Under the pieces are notes generated by a model. That model saw only the letters and a list, made by a program, of their open reading frames with translations. It had not been told where the DNA came from and did not search any database. DNA of 23,827 nucleotides. Origin: a virus. Location of the stretch: positions 1 to 23,827 of the IMG/VR virus record IMGVR_UViG_3300048592_000457. One strand, given 5' to 3'. The translations under genes and the position numbers were made by a program. Positions 3,641-15,257 of the stretch are shown here, in pieces. The stretch's first letter is position 1. The number at the start of each line of letters is the position of its first letter.

Positions 3641-4210
3641 ATGTCGAATTTTCTCAATGAATTATCGTCAACGATCGCGCCATCAACCGGGTTCCGCCAA
3701 TTGGCACCGGGCAAATATGATGGACAAATCACCGGAATCGTCCAAAAGGAACTGAATGGTTCGCCGGTATGGGAAATTGATGTCCAAACACCCCAAGGGA
3801 AAACCAACGCATTGATTTGGGGATTTAACCCCACCGATTTGCAATTGGCTGAACAAGATTTCCGGTCAGGGAATCAGGATTCCAAATATTTAAAAGGCGT
3901 CATGATGACAATCGACAAGGCCAAAAAAATGCTTTGTGATGTGGGCGTTTGGGACGAAAAGAATACGGACGATGTGAAGTCCCGCCCATGGTCTGGTGGG
4001 GAAAATTCCGTGTTGGGTTCGCTTGCTAAGATGATTGGGAAGGCATGTTCGGTTGTGGTTCAACCCCGGCGGGATGACGCAACCAAAATGAATACCTACA
4101 TCAACCCACCGCGCCCAACTGGGCAGGGTTCAACCCTTCCATCATTCGATAACGTTCCGTCCCAGTTTGACATCAGCCGCGCACCTAGCCTTGATCAAAT
4201 TCCGTTTTGA
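3641..4210 (+). CDS. Single-stranded DNA-binding-like protein (DUF669-type)
   Basis: Encodes 189 residues. The N-terminal half looks like an OB-type beta fold (APGKYDGQITGIV, then PVWEIDVQTPQGK). A proline- and glycine-rich flexible segment follows (about 150-175). The protein ends LDQIPF, which resembles the conserved acidic, phenylalanine-ending tip of bacterial SSB (DDDIPF) used to recruit partner proteins. DUF669-type phage proteins are found with Sak/recombination modules as SSB equivalents. Here it closes the nuclease-ATPase operon and is followed at once by a terminator. The C-terminal tip is seen directly; the ssDNA-binding role is inferred. Confidence 0.75.
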   Translation: MSNFLNELSSTIAPSTGFRQLAPGKYDGQITGIVQKELNGSPVWEIDVQTPQGKTNALIWGFNPTDLQLAEQDFRSGNQDSKYLKGVMMTIDKAKKMLCDVGVWDEKNTDDVKSRPWSGGENSVLGSLAKMIGKACSVVVQPRRDDATKMNTYINPPRPTGQGSTLPSFDNVPSQFDISRAPSLDQIPF

Positions 4211-4241
4211 TTAATTTTTAATCACTTCGAATGAAATCAAT

Positions 4242-4274
4242 CGCCAATCGATTTTCGGTTGGCGGTTTTTTTTT
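4242..4274 (+). terminator. Rho-independent terminator after the SSB-like gene
   Basis: A 9-bp stem with one G-T wobble (4242-4250 with 4256-4264, CGCCAA...TTGGCG core) and a 5-nt loop is followed by G and nine T residues (4266-4274). It ends the recombination operon. Confidence 0.9.
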
Positions 4275-4305
4275 GTGTGTGTATTGTTCCGGCAAGCAAC
4301 CATGT

Positions 4306-4341
4306 AAAACAAAACCCCGACGCGAATGGTTCACGCCGGGG
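4306..4341 (-). terminator. Terminator-like hairpin reading on the minus strand
   Basis: CCCCG (4315-4319) pairs with CGGGG (4337-4341), and the stem continues with mismatches inward. On the minus strand it is followed by TTTTGTTTTA (complement of 4305-4314), the layout of an intrinsic terminator. A further stem GCAACC (4296-4301) / GGTTGC (4351-4356) encloses it. No minus-strand protein gene lies upstream of it, so it may end a non-coding transcript, or it may be part of another structured element. Confidence 0.5.
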
Positions 4342-4448
4342 TAGATTCAAGGTTGCCATTTCTTCCGAGTGCCTTGGTTAAAACAGCGGGGATTATGTAT
4401 CAATCCGATCATCACAAATCAACCAAATTTTTCGAAAGGGGACGCGCT

Positions 4449-4562
4449 ATGAAGCGAGTTGATGGACTGCCATTGTCAAAAAAATTTTGCCCAAGGGTGA
4501 CGGGTATGGTCCCCGGTGCGTTGATTTGGTGCGTTAAATCAACGTACCAGAATAACGAGTAA
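4449..4562 (+). CDS. Possible 37-residue basic peptide
   Basis: A short ORF begins at ATG 4449, six bases after a good ribosome site (AAAGGGGA). The product starts MKRVDGLPLSKKF and is basic with two cysteines. It resembles no family that I recognise. It runs through the 4519-4544 hairpin and stops in the first iteron-like repeat, so the sequence may be under selection as DNA instead of protein. Kept as a low-confidence candidate because of the ribosome site. Confidence 0.25.
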   Translation: MKRVDGLPLSKKFCPRVTGMVPGALIWCVKSTYQNNE

Positions 4563-4627
4563 TTAAATACCTAGGTAATTAGATACTTAGATACTGAATT
4601 AAATAATTAACTAATTACAACACCTAG
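4519..4627. other. Candidate replication origin: hairpin plus AT-rich iteron-like repeats
   Basis: A perfect 9-bp inverted repeat CGTTGATTT (4519-4527) / AAATCAACG (4536-4544) precedes an AT-rich tract. The tract carries direct repeats TAATTAAATACCTAG (4560-4574) and TAATTAGATACTTAG (4576-4590), spaced 16 bp, and a weaker third copy TAATTACAACACCTAG (4612-4627). TAGATACT is also repeated in tandem (4580-4587, 4588-4595), and TACCTAGGTA (4568-4577) is a palindrome. This lies directly upstream of a winged-helix replication protein gene, the usual place for iterons. It could instead, or also, be an operator controlling that gene. Confidence 0.5.
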
Positions 4628-4652
4628 AAGAAATACATACAGGACGTGAAAA

Positions 4653-5699
4653 ATGATTCAGGGGATCGCGCATCGATTGCCGCAATATCTGGAATTCTTA
4701 GACCGGTTAAATTTTGAGGTTCGCCATTTGTTTCGAAAACAAAGGAACGTCCCCAAGGAAGCCATCAATTGGTTCGACATTGAAACGGCGTCCATGATTG
4801 GGACGATAATTCACCAATGCACCGAAAAGAAATCAGAGGAAATTGTTTTATCGGTGTATCAACTAGCTGAAATGTCCCATGTAAGTTACCAATCGGCCAG
4901 AACACGGCTAACCAGGATGGCGGCTTTTGGGATCATTGAAACCGAATCCGACTGGGAACAAGTTGGGAAGCGCAGAAAACCCACCACAATTCGATTGCAT
5001 CGGCATTTTAGGACAGCGGTTTCAAAGGGTTCTAAGCCTGGTTTGCTGATGGAAGCGGTCCGTTTTTTTGCTCTTACTGGGTTTCGAAACCTAACAGAGG
5101 AAACCGCCCATGATGCGGAACTAGGGCGTTTCGGTGATTTGGCTGAAAAGGTAGAAAACGACAAAGCGGAAAAAACCAAGAATCGCATTTACTGGGCAGA
5201 AAAATCAGAACGCTTTGTTAAGGGCGCGGCGCGAATTTGGCAGGTAATGCAATCGGCTAGGGGTTACGGTAGCGCCTTGCCTAATTGGTGTGGGGAAAAT
5301 CTAAGCCCAACGACCGCAAGGGAACGGCGGGAACTGGAAAAAATTTTCCAACAATACGGTGGGCGCATCACAGCAACCGCCTGGTGGGTGTTTTGTGGTG
5401 GGATTGTTCAAAAAGATGACAAGGGGAACCGTATCTATAACCCGGAAATTCCACACATCCAATTTGCATCGATCGACCGCAAGCCAAGCCAATTCACTAA
5501 ACATTTCAACGCAATATTGTGTGATGAGGGATTCAAACGGTTCGCAACGACCGGATTCACCGACGAATTGCAAGCTATGTATAAGCGAGTTTTTGGGGAC
5601 AGTTTCGAAATTTTACCAAGGGATGGCCGAAGCGAATTTGATTTGCTAGGCTTTTATTTCGGCCAAACAAGTCCAACCGTCGATGAGGTTCCCGCATGA
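4653..5699 (+). CDS. Winged-helix replication protein (putative initiator)
   Basis: Encodes 348 residues. The N-terminal 120 or so residues form a probable winged helix-turn-helix: VYQLAEMSHVSYQSARTRL (about 68-86) as the helix-turn-helix, then AAFGIIETES and a KRRKPTTIRL wing. The rest is mostly helical with no clear catalytic motif. Such proteins upstream of a phage primase-helicase usually bind the origin and load the helicase, like lambda O or DnaD-type proteins. It follows iteron-like repeats and overlaps the primase-helicase gene by ATGA, so the two are probably made together. An alternative is a transcription regulator; the neighbourhood favours replication. Confidence 0.65.
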   Translation: MIQGIAHRLPQYLEFLDRLNFEVRHLFRKQRNVPKEAINWFDIETASMIGTIIHQCTEKKSEEIVLSVYQLAEMSHVSYQSARTRLTRMAAFGIIETESDWEQVGKRRKPTTIRLHRHFRTAVSKGSKPGLLMEAVRFFALTGFRNLTEETAHDAELGRFGDLAEKVENDKAEKTKNRIYWAEKSERFVKGAARIWQVMQSARGYGSALPNWCGENLSPTTARERRELEKIFQQYGGRITATAWWVFCGGIVQKDDKGNRIYNPEIPHIQFASIDRKPSQFTKHFNAILCDEGFKRFATTGFTDELQAMYKRVFGDSFEILPRDGRSEFDLLGFYFGQTSPTVDEVPA

Positions 5700-7462
5700 A
5701 ATTTCGGCGTGAATACCGCGATCCCCGTCCTGGGGAAGTTGCGGCGTTTTTATCATCACATGCTAGGTGGGTACGCCAACAACAACTTGGCCATGGGACC
5801 GAATTGAGATTTCGCCCGTGTCCAAAATGTGGGCATGACAAACCGGACAATCCAGCCGGTCAAATAAACGCCGCAACCGGATTGTGGCGTTGCTTTGCAT
5901 GTGACGCGGTTGGGAATTGGTTCACCTTAACCCGTGAATTCGGAAGCCCGCTACCGGAAGGGGACCGCTACAAAAACGAACGCAACCAAATCAACCCAAA
6001 ATTGTACGAGAGTTTGAGAAATCAAACCCGCCGACCGGTCGCTGATGGGCATTATCCCGAATTGCTTTCGTATTGCCATCAACGGCGGATCGGCAACGAC
6101 ACGTTGAACGCTTGGAAAGTTTCAAGCCGTGGGGACGCGGCTTTGAGGTTCCCGATTTATGCTTGGCTGAACGACACATGGGAAATCGTCAACGCCCGGA
6201 TTCGGGTGTGTATCGATCCCAACGCCAAGGTTCGGGATTATTTTGAAATCAAAGGCGGACCAACCCGGCTCTTACTGGGCAATCACCTAATCGATCCCAA
6301 CGGTCCCAAGCGGGCCATCATTTTCGAAGGACAATGGGACGTGATGACTGCCTACGAATTGGGCATCCGAAATGTTTTCTCAATCCCCAATGGGGCAAAC
6401 AACATCCACGTTGCCGATATGCTCCAGTACATCCCCGATGATTGGGAAATTTGGTTGGCTATGGACAATGACGCCGCCGGACAAAAAGCAATTGAAAAAT
6501 TTTTCGCACAATTGGGACCGGATCGCGTAGCACGTCTAAAACTGCCCACAAAGGATTTGAATGATTGGGCGGTGTCTAACCATTCCCTGACCGCTTCCGA
6601 CGTTTTAAACACGGTTTCCGGCGTTACCACGATGATTTCCATGACGGGGACAACCCCGGAAATGTTTTTGGGGATCAAAATGGACGAATCGTCGGACGAA
6701 TCGAACGCGCCGATTGCGTTCAGTCCATGGAAAAAATTGAATCATCTTTTGGCTGGTGGGTTTCGGGCAGGTGAAACAACCGGCGTTTTAGCGCCGTCCG
6801 GTGTGGGAAAAACAACATGGTGTAATCATGTGGCGGTATTTAACGCATCGGAAGGGATCAAAGTGGGCTTGATTTCCCTTGAGGGAACCAGGGAAGCGTT
6901 GAAACGTAAAATCAGGGATGCGGTTAAGGGTGTATGTGCTCAAGAAAAATACCAAACAACGCTTTCCAACCTTTTTATTTCCAACCTGGAATCAACCGCC
7001 ACAACATGGAACGAATGCATCGACGAATTTCAAATCATGGTGAAATCGGGCGCAAAACTCTTGATCCTGGATAACCTTGATTTCATCACGCGGGACGTTC
7101 AATCAGACAAACTTCGCTCATATGCCGCCATCATTGGCTTGGCGCGAACCCACAATGTTCATGTGATCGTTGTATGGCAACCAAACAAGGTTGACCGGAA
7201 CGCATGTGTGAATTCTGGGAATCAAAAGGGATATTCCCAAACGTTCCAGGATTCGGACAACTACATAAACCTGAATGTTATCGATGATTTCACCCGTTTA
7301 GAGGTTGAAAAAAGCCGGGAACAAGGGGTTCGGCGAATCGATAACAAGTGTTGGTTTGTTTATGACAAAAAAACCAGGACGTTTGCAGAATGCGAACCCA
7401 AAAAAGATTTGGGCAAAAAGAACGAAACCGATTTTCAACCGGTTGACATAGTGCGCGTTTAA
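5696..7462 (+). CDS. Primase-helicase, T7 gp4-like
   Basis: Encodes 588 residues with three domains. A zinc-binding domain has CPKC (C42, C45) and CFAC (C66, C69). A TOPRIM primase domain has the glutamate motif AIIFEGQWD (about 207-215) and the paired aspartates in LAMDNDAAG (about 254-262). A RecA-type helicase domain has Walker A APSGVGKTT (about 366-374), Walker B LLILDNLD (about 454-461) and a later VIVVWQPNK motif. The enzyme would make RNA primers and unwind DNA at the fork. It overlaps the initiator gene. The frame immediately after the stop stays open in +1 to 7595, noted separately. Confidence 0.93.
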   Translation: MKFRREYRDPRPGEVAAFLSSHARWVRQQQLGHGTELRFRPCPKCGHDKPDNPAGQINAATGLWRCFACDAVGNWFTLTREFGSPLPEGDRYKNERNQINPKLYESLRNQTRRPVADGHYPELLSYCHQRRIGNDTLNAWKVSSRGDAALRFPIYAWLNDTWEIVNARIRVCIDPNAKVRDYFEIKGGPTRLLLGNHLIDPNGPKRAIIFEGQWDVMTAYELGIRNVFSIPNGANNIHVADMLQYIPDDWEIWLAMDNDAAGQKAIEKFFAQLGPDRVARLKLPTKDLNDWAVSNHSLTASDVLNTVSGVTTMISMTGTTPEMFLGIKMDESSDESNAPIAFSPWKKLNHLLAGGFRAGETTGVLAPSGVGKTTWCNHVAVFNASEGIKVGLISLEGTREALKRKIRDAVKGVCAQEKYQTTLSNLFISNLESTATTWNECIDEFQIMVKSGAKLLILDNLDFITRDVQSDKLRSYAAIIGLARTHNVHVIVVWQPNKVDRNACVNSGNQKGYSQTFQDSDNYINLNVIDDFTRLEVEKSREQGVRRIDNKCWFVYDKKTRTFAECEPKKDLGKKNETDFQPVDIVRV

Positions 7463-11938: not shown

Positions 11939-12247
11939 ATGAAAAAGAAAATAGTTAAGAAAAAAGAGCGTTATGTGATTGTTAGGAGTGCACAAGCTGG
12001 AGTGTTTGCCGGGGTATTGTTATCCCGTAAAGGGCCGTCGGTGATTTTAATAAACGCTCGACGTATTTGGTACTGGGACGGTGCCGCAAGCCTTTCGCAG
12101 CTTGCCATGGAAGGCACGAAAGTGCCAGAAAACTGCAAATTTCCTGCTCCTGTCGGGGTGGTCGAAATCTTTGAGGCATGTGAAATGATCGATTGCACCG
12201 ATGTGGCTCGGGTGTCAATTGAAGCGGTGAAACCATGGTCAAGATAA
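11939..12247 (+). CDS. DUF6948-like conserved phage protein
   Basis: Encodes 102 residues from ATG 11939, placed five bases after AAAGGGG; ATG 11915 gives a longer form without a good ribosome site. After a lysine-rich start the core reads YVIVRSAQAGVFAGVL, INARRIWYWDGAASLSQLA and PENCKFPAPVGVVEIFEACE, a very characteristic order of motifs in a conserved phage family (I recall it as DUF6948; the number should be checked). Function unknown. In my memory of related phages this gene is often followed by a GS/GY/GD-repeat gene, as here. Overlaps that gene by 13 nt. Confidence 0.75.
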   Translation: MKKKIVKKKERYVIVRSAQAGVFAGVLLSRKGPSVILINARRIWYWDGAASLSQLAMEGTKVPENCKFPAPVGVVEIFEACEMIDCTDVARVSIEAVKPWSR

Positions 12248-12576
12248 ATGCTGGCTCTGGCTATGGCTCTGGCGATGGCGATGGCTCTGGCTATGGCTCT
12301 GGCTCTGGCGATGGCTCTGGCGATGGCTCTGGCTATGGCTCTGGCTATGGCTCTGGCTCTGGCTCTGGCTATGGCTCTGGCGATGGCTCTGGCTATGGCG
12401 ATGGCTATGGCTCTGGCTCTGGCTCTGGCTATGGCTCTGGCGATGGCTCTGGCTATGGCGATGGCTATGGCTCTGGCGATGGCTCTGGCTCTGGCTCTGG
12501 CTATGGCTCTGGCTCTGGCTCTGGCTATGGCTCTGGCTCTGGCGATGGCTCTGGGAATAATGGTGTGGATGGATAA
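12235..12576 (+). CDS. Low-complexity Gly-Ser/Tyr/Asp repeat protein
   Basis: Encodes 113 residues: a six-residue start (MVKINA), then about 50 glycine-X dipeptides in which X is Ser, Tyr or Asp, ending NNGVDG. It has no hydrophobic core and should be disordered, perhaps able to self-associate through its tyrosines. A 20-residue block is repeated exactly at residues 39-58 and 59-78. The start lies inside the end of the preceding gene and the stop overlaps the start of the HNH-like gene. The same DNA is open in other frames, giving Leu-Ala-Met repeats or, on the minus strand, Ser-Gln-His repeats. Frame choice rests on the start context and the recurrent association with the upstream family. 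Confidence 0.6.
   Translation: MVKINAGSGYGSGDGDGSGYGSGSGDGSGDGSGYGSGYGSGSGSGYGSGDGSGYGDGYGSGSGSGYGSGDGSGYGDGYGSGDGSGSGSGYGSGSGSGYGSGSGDGSGNNGVDG
12253..12555. repeat. 303-bp hexanucleotide repeat tract
   Basis: About 50 copies of GGC(TCT/TAT/GAT) in tandem. A higher-order 60-bp unit is repeated exactly at 12349-12408 and 12409-12468. There is no stop codon in any plus-strand frame of the tract. Such tracts expand and contract by slippage in steps of six bases, which keeps the frame. Confidence 0.95.
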
Positions 12577-13135: not shown

Positions 13136-13172
13136 TGTCGGTATGTTAAATTCGACATACCGACATTTTTTT
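13136..13172 (+). terminator. Strong rho-independent terminator
   Basis: A perfect 11-bp stem (13136-13146 tgtcggtatgt with 13155-13165 acataccgaca) with an 8-nt loop is followed by seven T residues (13166-13172). It ends the accessory operon. The next gene begins only about 10 bases later. Confidence 0.93.
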
Positions 13173-15071: not shown

Positions 15072-15257
15072 TCATTTTCCGGCGTAGTATTGACGGGACA
15101 ATTCTTGAAGAGCGGCTACCGCATCGGCTTCATTGTCAAAGTTGAAGGCAATTGCTCCATCCGTGTCGAGTTTAACCCCGTCAATACGGGTTAAACTCCA
15201 CACCATGACGCCAAGATCGTTGTTGAAAACTTGGTTGACTTGGTAGGGAGATTTCAT
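15072..15257 (-). CDS. Small protein of unknown function, first of minus operon
   Basis: Encodes 61 residues. ATG 15257 has GAGGTG eight bases upstream. Beta-rich first half (GVMVWSLTRIDGVKLD) and a helical end (EADAVAALQELSRQYY). Small phage proteins with this short strand/AV-AL-EL helix layout are common. It heads the minus-strand cluster directly downstream of a promoter-like pair. The 75-bp gap to the next gene carries ACCCC-GAAA-GGGGT, a tetraloop hairpin with no T tract. Confidence 0.6.
   Translation of the reverse strand: MKSPYQVNQVFNNDLGVMVWSLTRIDGVKLDTDGAIAFNFDNEADAVAALQELSRQYYAGK

Follow-up and report, generated by a model that had tools for sequence, protein, structure and literature searches.

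A putative iteron-type replication origin upstream of a candidate winged-helix initiator gene in a lineage of uncultivated phages

Replication of phage T7 starts at promoters by way of T7 RNA polymerase and is not known to involve iterons or a separate origin-binding protein. At the origin of phage lambda, dimers of the O protein bind to the iterons and the neighboring A+T-rich 40 bp open (PMC5043065; PMC7466680). Here, we analysed IMG/VR record IMGVR_UViG_3300048592_000457, a genome fragment of 23,827 bases from an uncultivated tailed phage, which was studied over its whole length and is referred to as the window. An earlier note, made from the sequence alone, had proposed that repeats in front of a gene for a winged-helix replication protein form an origin with initiator binding sites. 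This proposal is supported by palindromic direct repeats located just upstream of the homologous gene in six related records. Because the six relatives carry such repeats at the same place, we favour the reading that the intergenic stretch of approximately 110-140 bp upstream of the gene at 4653-5699, designated the candidate initiator gene, serves as the iteron-type replication origin of this phage, and on the grounds of sequence comparison we assign to this reading a probability of roughly 0.78. Origins of the iteron type are well known, and the present one would add a new example to them.

Searches with Sak4 and terminase yielded two related records, G1 (51,890 bp) and G2 (53,845 bp), which were treated as near-complete because both have terminal repeats. 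A three-row alignment of the primase-helicase led to four further records (L021, L024, L025, and L026), in each of which the initiator homolog was confirmed by profile search. Together with the window, these seven metagenomic records constitute the family considered here. Throughout this family, the initiator gene is paired with a T7-type primase-helicase gene directly downstream, and in the window, G1, and G2 the two genes overlap at the initiator stop codon or all but adjoin. The initiator homologs share 25-37% identity with the window protein over the alignment, with higher conservation in the C-terminal half than in the presumed DNA-binding half at the N terminus. No close relative of the window was found in the viral or genome contigs searched, and a conservation footprint of its own array is therefore impossible.

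In G1, the sequence CTGGCGCACTATGCGCCAG is present at positions 40031 and 40054 with a degenerate copy at 40074, and G2 carries GACATTATGTCAAACTG-like copies at 50045, 50068, and 50112. Likewise, L024 harbors three palindromic copies at 3884, 3908, and 3932, so that a third copy is present in these three records. Two copies of CTCAGCCCAAATGGGC, 23 bp apart, were found in both L025 and L026, and two palindromes, 22 bp apart, in L021. The spacing of the best pair in the six relatives is 23, 23, 22, 24, 23, and 23 bp. In all seven records the repeats lie upstream of the initiator gene, and no top repeat pair is located inside the gene of the window. Moreover, most members of the family contain an AT-rich tract beside the repeats.

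Each record was then scanned over its full length for palindromic direct repeats 16-26 bp apart without prior knowledge of the site. The stretch preceding the initiator gene, which comprises 0.8-3.2% of each record, ranked first in five of the seven records (G1, L021, L024, L025, and L026). In the window and in G2 it took second place, being surpassed by nothing but tandem arrays; under a tighter non-overlap rule, the tandem array of the window fills places one to three of the scan. Thus, with tandem arrays set aside, the homologous place heads the repeat loci in seven of seven records, which amount to six independent cases because L025 and L026 are close kin. The annotated iterons of lambda, which are 20, 24, and 23 bp apart, score like those of the family in the same test.

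The earlier note had named free variation of the repeats among close relatives as a finding that would speak against an origin. No such variation is seen in L025 and L026, the sole close pair. Here, the longest identical run within 1.8 kb is an 82-bp block covering the repeats, and no other DNA of the region is as well conserved. Identity amounts to 78.0% in the 513 intergenic columns that precede this block and to 88.7% in the initiator gene.

In the window itself, all elements listed in the earlier note, namely the direct repeats, the weaker third copy, the tandem repeat, the palindrome, and the hairpin, are present (Table 1). The AATTARAT-type units, which were absent from that list, form the AT-rich array in which we see the initiator's candidate iterons. 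With Tandem Repeats Finder, a period-16 array was obtained at 4559-4590 and period-8 arrays at 4563-4595 and 4597-4617. Whether the whole region or just the AT-rich block was shuffled, the 15-mer direct repeat yielded P values of 0.007-0.014, and the best inverted repeat had P values of 0.012 for 4211-4652 and 0.004 for 4450-4652; one perfect stem of at least 9 bp was observed in the region versus 0.04 expected. Inverted repeats do not reach significance when only the AT-rich block is considered (P 0.15), and the 10-bp palindrome taken alone is therefore weak evidence. When repetition and dyad symmetry were rewarded jointly, the partly palindromic 20-mers at 4561 and 4597, which are 36 bp apart, were equalled by none of 400 local shuffles.

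Repeats could also arise by chance in AT-rich intergenic DNA, the composition of which favours them, and the P value of a single test in the window is only about 0.01. Since the shuffle tests were picked after the repeats had been seen, the P values of the window alone would not settle this question. However, the result of the joint statistic and the top rank of the homologous place in all seven records argue against a chance origin of the repeats, which we regard as highly improbable.

Table 1. Features of the candidate origin region and its flanking genes in the window
Feature	Position	Strand	Description
Intrinsic-terminator-like hairpin followed by T run	4239-4267	+	Ends the upstream operon and sets the candidate origin region apart
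Dyad containing the 9-bp hairpin	4515-4548		Arms of 13 bp, one mismatch; spacer GGTGCGTT of 8 bp
Perfect 9-bp hairpin	4519-4527, 4536-4544		Arms CGTTGATTT and AAATCAACG; loop GGTGCGTT at 4528-4535
AT-rich repeat array	4559-4627	+	AATTARAT-type units at 4561, 4577, and 4597, weaker at 4613; spacing 16, 20, 16
15-mer direct repeats	4560-4574, 4576-4590		TAATTAAATACCTAG and TAATTAGATACTTAG; 13/15 identical, 16 bp spacing
Most AT-rich 60-mer of the window	4561-4620		82% AT; candidate DNA unwinding element
Palindrome	4568-4577		TACCTAGGTA; inside the first repeat pair
Tandem repeat	4580-4595		TAGATACT
Weaker third repeat copy	4612-4627		TAATTACAACACCTAG
Candidate initiator gene	4653-5699	+	Product of 348 aa, its N-terminal third predicted to form a winged helix; homologous genes in the six relatives
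T7-type primase-helicase gene	5696-7462	+	Start codon overlaps the stop codon of the 4653-5699 gene (ATGA); phrog_239 class

Upstream of the array, the window contains a dyad that is possibly an initiator site or a regulatory element. Provided that the origin is real, the initiator site of the window might be this 34-bp dyad, with the AT-rich "iterons" acting as an unwinding element only. Relative to the AT-rich tract, the dyad is placed on the far side, like the palindromic repeats of G2, L025, and L026, and it ranks fourth by strength among the inverted repeats of the window. However, the dyad occurs only once and its arms are 8 bp apart, whereas the relatives contain repeated palindromes with short spacers, and the AT-rich array displays repetition as well as dyad symmetry above the level of local shuffles. 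Although the sequence cannot tell whether the dyad or the array is the initiator site, we consider the former a serious possibility with the odds somewhat against it.

The hairpin within the dyad could alternatively function in the RNA, where it would regulate or stabilize the initiator transcript independently of an origin. In line with this notion, the hairpin is located in the presumed leader of the initiator gene, and its RNA fold has a free energy of -19.5 kcal/mol (z -2.8). However, it does not overlap with the likely ribosome-binding site, and Rfam gave no match; a role in the RNA thus appears rather unlikely. A tRNA search also gave nothing. The hairpin was also rejected as an intrinsic terminator, because no T run follows it. 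The repeat AAATCAAC (4416, 4520 on the other strand, and 4536) was tried as an alternative iteron and dropped, since the 8-mer is also found elsewhere in the window. In addition, a possible open reading frame (ORF) of 37 aa with a plausible ribosome-binding site (4449-4562) overlaps the hairpin and ends at the AT-rich tract; as it is not kept in the related phage records, it is unsupported as a conserved gene.

The earlier note had described the product of the 4653-5699 gene as a winged-helix replication protein. As far as the fold is concerned, the prediction agrees: the AlphaFold model, built from the seven-sequence alignment (mean predicted local distance difference test score 78.5, predicted template modelling score 0.58), displays, at residues 43-115, a succession of helices and strands as in a winged helix. 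Foldseek returned winged helices of the MarR type, which are the top matches, and of TFE. Its viral matches comprise helix-turn-helix proteins as well as entries named "replication initiator A family protein" and "putative replication protein O"; all of these matches have E values of 0.001 or more. The role in replication and the binding of the repeats are a matter of inference, and it is from gene order, predicted fold, and repeats that we infer the designation as initiator. The protein has no Pfam or PHROG match at an E value of 0.01 or better, none in NCBIfam, and no match in a tblastn search of the INPHARED phages, and no homology was found on its comparison with lambda O by hhalign (probability 0.4%). 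Thus, the putative initiator family is absent from the libraries searched.

The similarity to MarR-type regulators raises the question whether the repeats are solely an operator or promoter, by which the winged-helix protein represses its own operon, with the origin residing elsewhere. The position of the repeats directly upstream of the gene would fit such a function, and a weak promoter-like match at 4580-4607 overlaps the array, such matches being no commoner than in shuffles. However, the gene is paired with the primase-helicase in every member of the family, an AT-rich tract adjoins the repeats in most of them, and in G1 and G2 perfect DnaA boxes occur nowhere but among or near the repeats. 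Considering moreover that origin and operator functions are compatible at one site, we judge an exclusively regulatory role decidedly unlikely.

With regard to DnaA, the stretch in front of the initiator gene contains the only two perfect boxes of each of the records G1 and G2, and none in the window, L021, L024, L025, and L026. The single perfect DnaA box of the window is located at 2943, inside the Sak4-like gene, and the AT-rich tract was likewise inspected for DnaA-trio motifs, of which no run of four or more was found in the window.

Several observations weigh against the assignment as an iteron-type origin. The 16/20/16 spacing in the window departs from the 22-24 bp seen in the relatives, and the best pair of the window within the range of 20-24 bp, which is 20 bp apart, is only partly palindromic and part of this same array. 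Furthermore, the array of the window is located inside the AT-rich tract and not beside it, there is no DnaA box with up to two mismatches in window positions 4211-4652, homology to known initiators was not detectable in the searches run, and autoregulatory operators could yield the same repeats. Finally, the change in GC skew anticipated at the site did not materialize: the skew does not switch its sign in the window, G1, or G2 but is positive on both sides. We judged this last test uninformative, because positive values prevail over almost the entire length and the same strand carries the majority of the genes.

By analogy with lambda, we propose the following mechanism for the putative iteron-type origin. 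The winged-helix protein would bind to its own repeats, probably as a dimer since the repeats have dyad symmetry. The bound protein may bend the DNA and melt the AT-rich tract, and its conserved C-terminal half may help to load the phage primase-helicase, likely the enzyme encoded directly downstream, which would then unwind and prime. The same sites may also allow the initiator to regulate its own gene. Because the region lacks a DnaA box, the initiator of the window is probably independent of the help of host DnaA that two relatives seemingly use.

Beyond the single locus, we tentatively propose, at slightly less than even odds, that a new initiator family pairs lambda-like palindromic iterons with a T7-type primase-helicase, that dependence on host DnaA was gained or lost within the lineage, and that a complete change of the iteron sequence went together with a change in the protein's DNA-binding half. 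Neither the curated libraries nor the INPHARED phage set contained an initiator homolog, and the literature, when searched for iteron origins that are combined with a phage primase-helicase, yielded nothing on the present lineage. Although the class of mechanism is already familiar, a probable origin and its probable initiator have been located for an uncultivated phage lineage, here represented by seven metagenomic records. These offer a natural series in which the same module occurs with differing iteron sequences and with or without DnaA boxes, and which is suited to study how the DNA specificity of an initiator changes and when phages rely on host DnaA.

The window further encodes a terminase, a portal protein, a head/protease protein, a RuvC-like resolvase, a PD-(D/E)XK exonuclease, and the Sak4-like ATPase besides the T7-type primase-helicase. 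The latter is without an intein in the window, and the primase-helicase of G2 (L013:390-1382, minus strand) contains an intein with the homing-endonuclease domains Hom_end_hint and Hom_end that interrupts the Walker A motif. In G1 and G2, a gene for an SF2 (ResIII/Helicase_C) helicase, which is not present in the window, lies between an SSB-like gene and the initiator gene (L002:7611-9497). Back to back with the terminator-like hairpin that precedes the origin region, a second one was found on the minus strand (4342-4314), with no leftward gene nearby. A GC-rich tandem array with units of approximately 12 bp (12235-12576) is positioned directly 5' of a DUF968-type gene and is open in two overlapping frames, one rich in Gly/Ser/Tyr and the other in Ala/Met/Leu; it is possibly a phase-variation or slippage array. 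The strongest inverted repeat of the window, GTGTCGAGTTTAACCCCGTCAATACGGGTTAAACTCCACAC (15163-15203), is located within a small leftward ORF of the leftward gene block at 14.1-15.3 kb, and the perfect 11-bp inverted repeat TGTCGGTATGTTAAATTCGACATACCGACA (13136-13165), which is intergenic, is a possible operator.

Among the known systems, the iteron plasmid origins of the P1, F, R6K, and pSC101 type likewise have replicon-specific repeats and an AT-rich tract before the initiator gene, and they resemble G1 and G2, but not the other members, in the DnaA boxes preceding that gene (PMC5043065). They differ in that the repeats of the present family are palindromic, that the protein has no Pfam plasmid-initiator domain or NCBIfam match, and that the window lacks a DnaA box in the region. 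The locus is reminiscent of ori-lambda, as the short palindromic repeats of the six relatives have a spacing within the 20-24 bp of the lambda iterons, an AT-rich tract lies beside the repeats in most members, and the gene of a winged-helix-type candidate initiator is followed by a helicase-related gene, which in lambda encodes the helicase loader P. In contrast to lambda, where the iterons lie inside the initiator gene, the repeats described here are upstream of it, the spacing in the window is 16/20/16, the initiator is without sequence homology to O, and the next gene encodes the phage's own primase-helicase instead of a loader for host DnaB. This primase-helicase belongs to the same class (phrog_239) as that of the T7 replication module. 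The arrangement may also resemble that of the SPP1-type replisome organisers, in which an origin-binding phage protein is encoded together with the phage's own replicative helicase.
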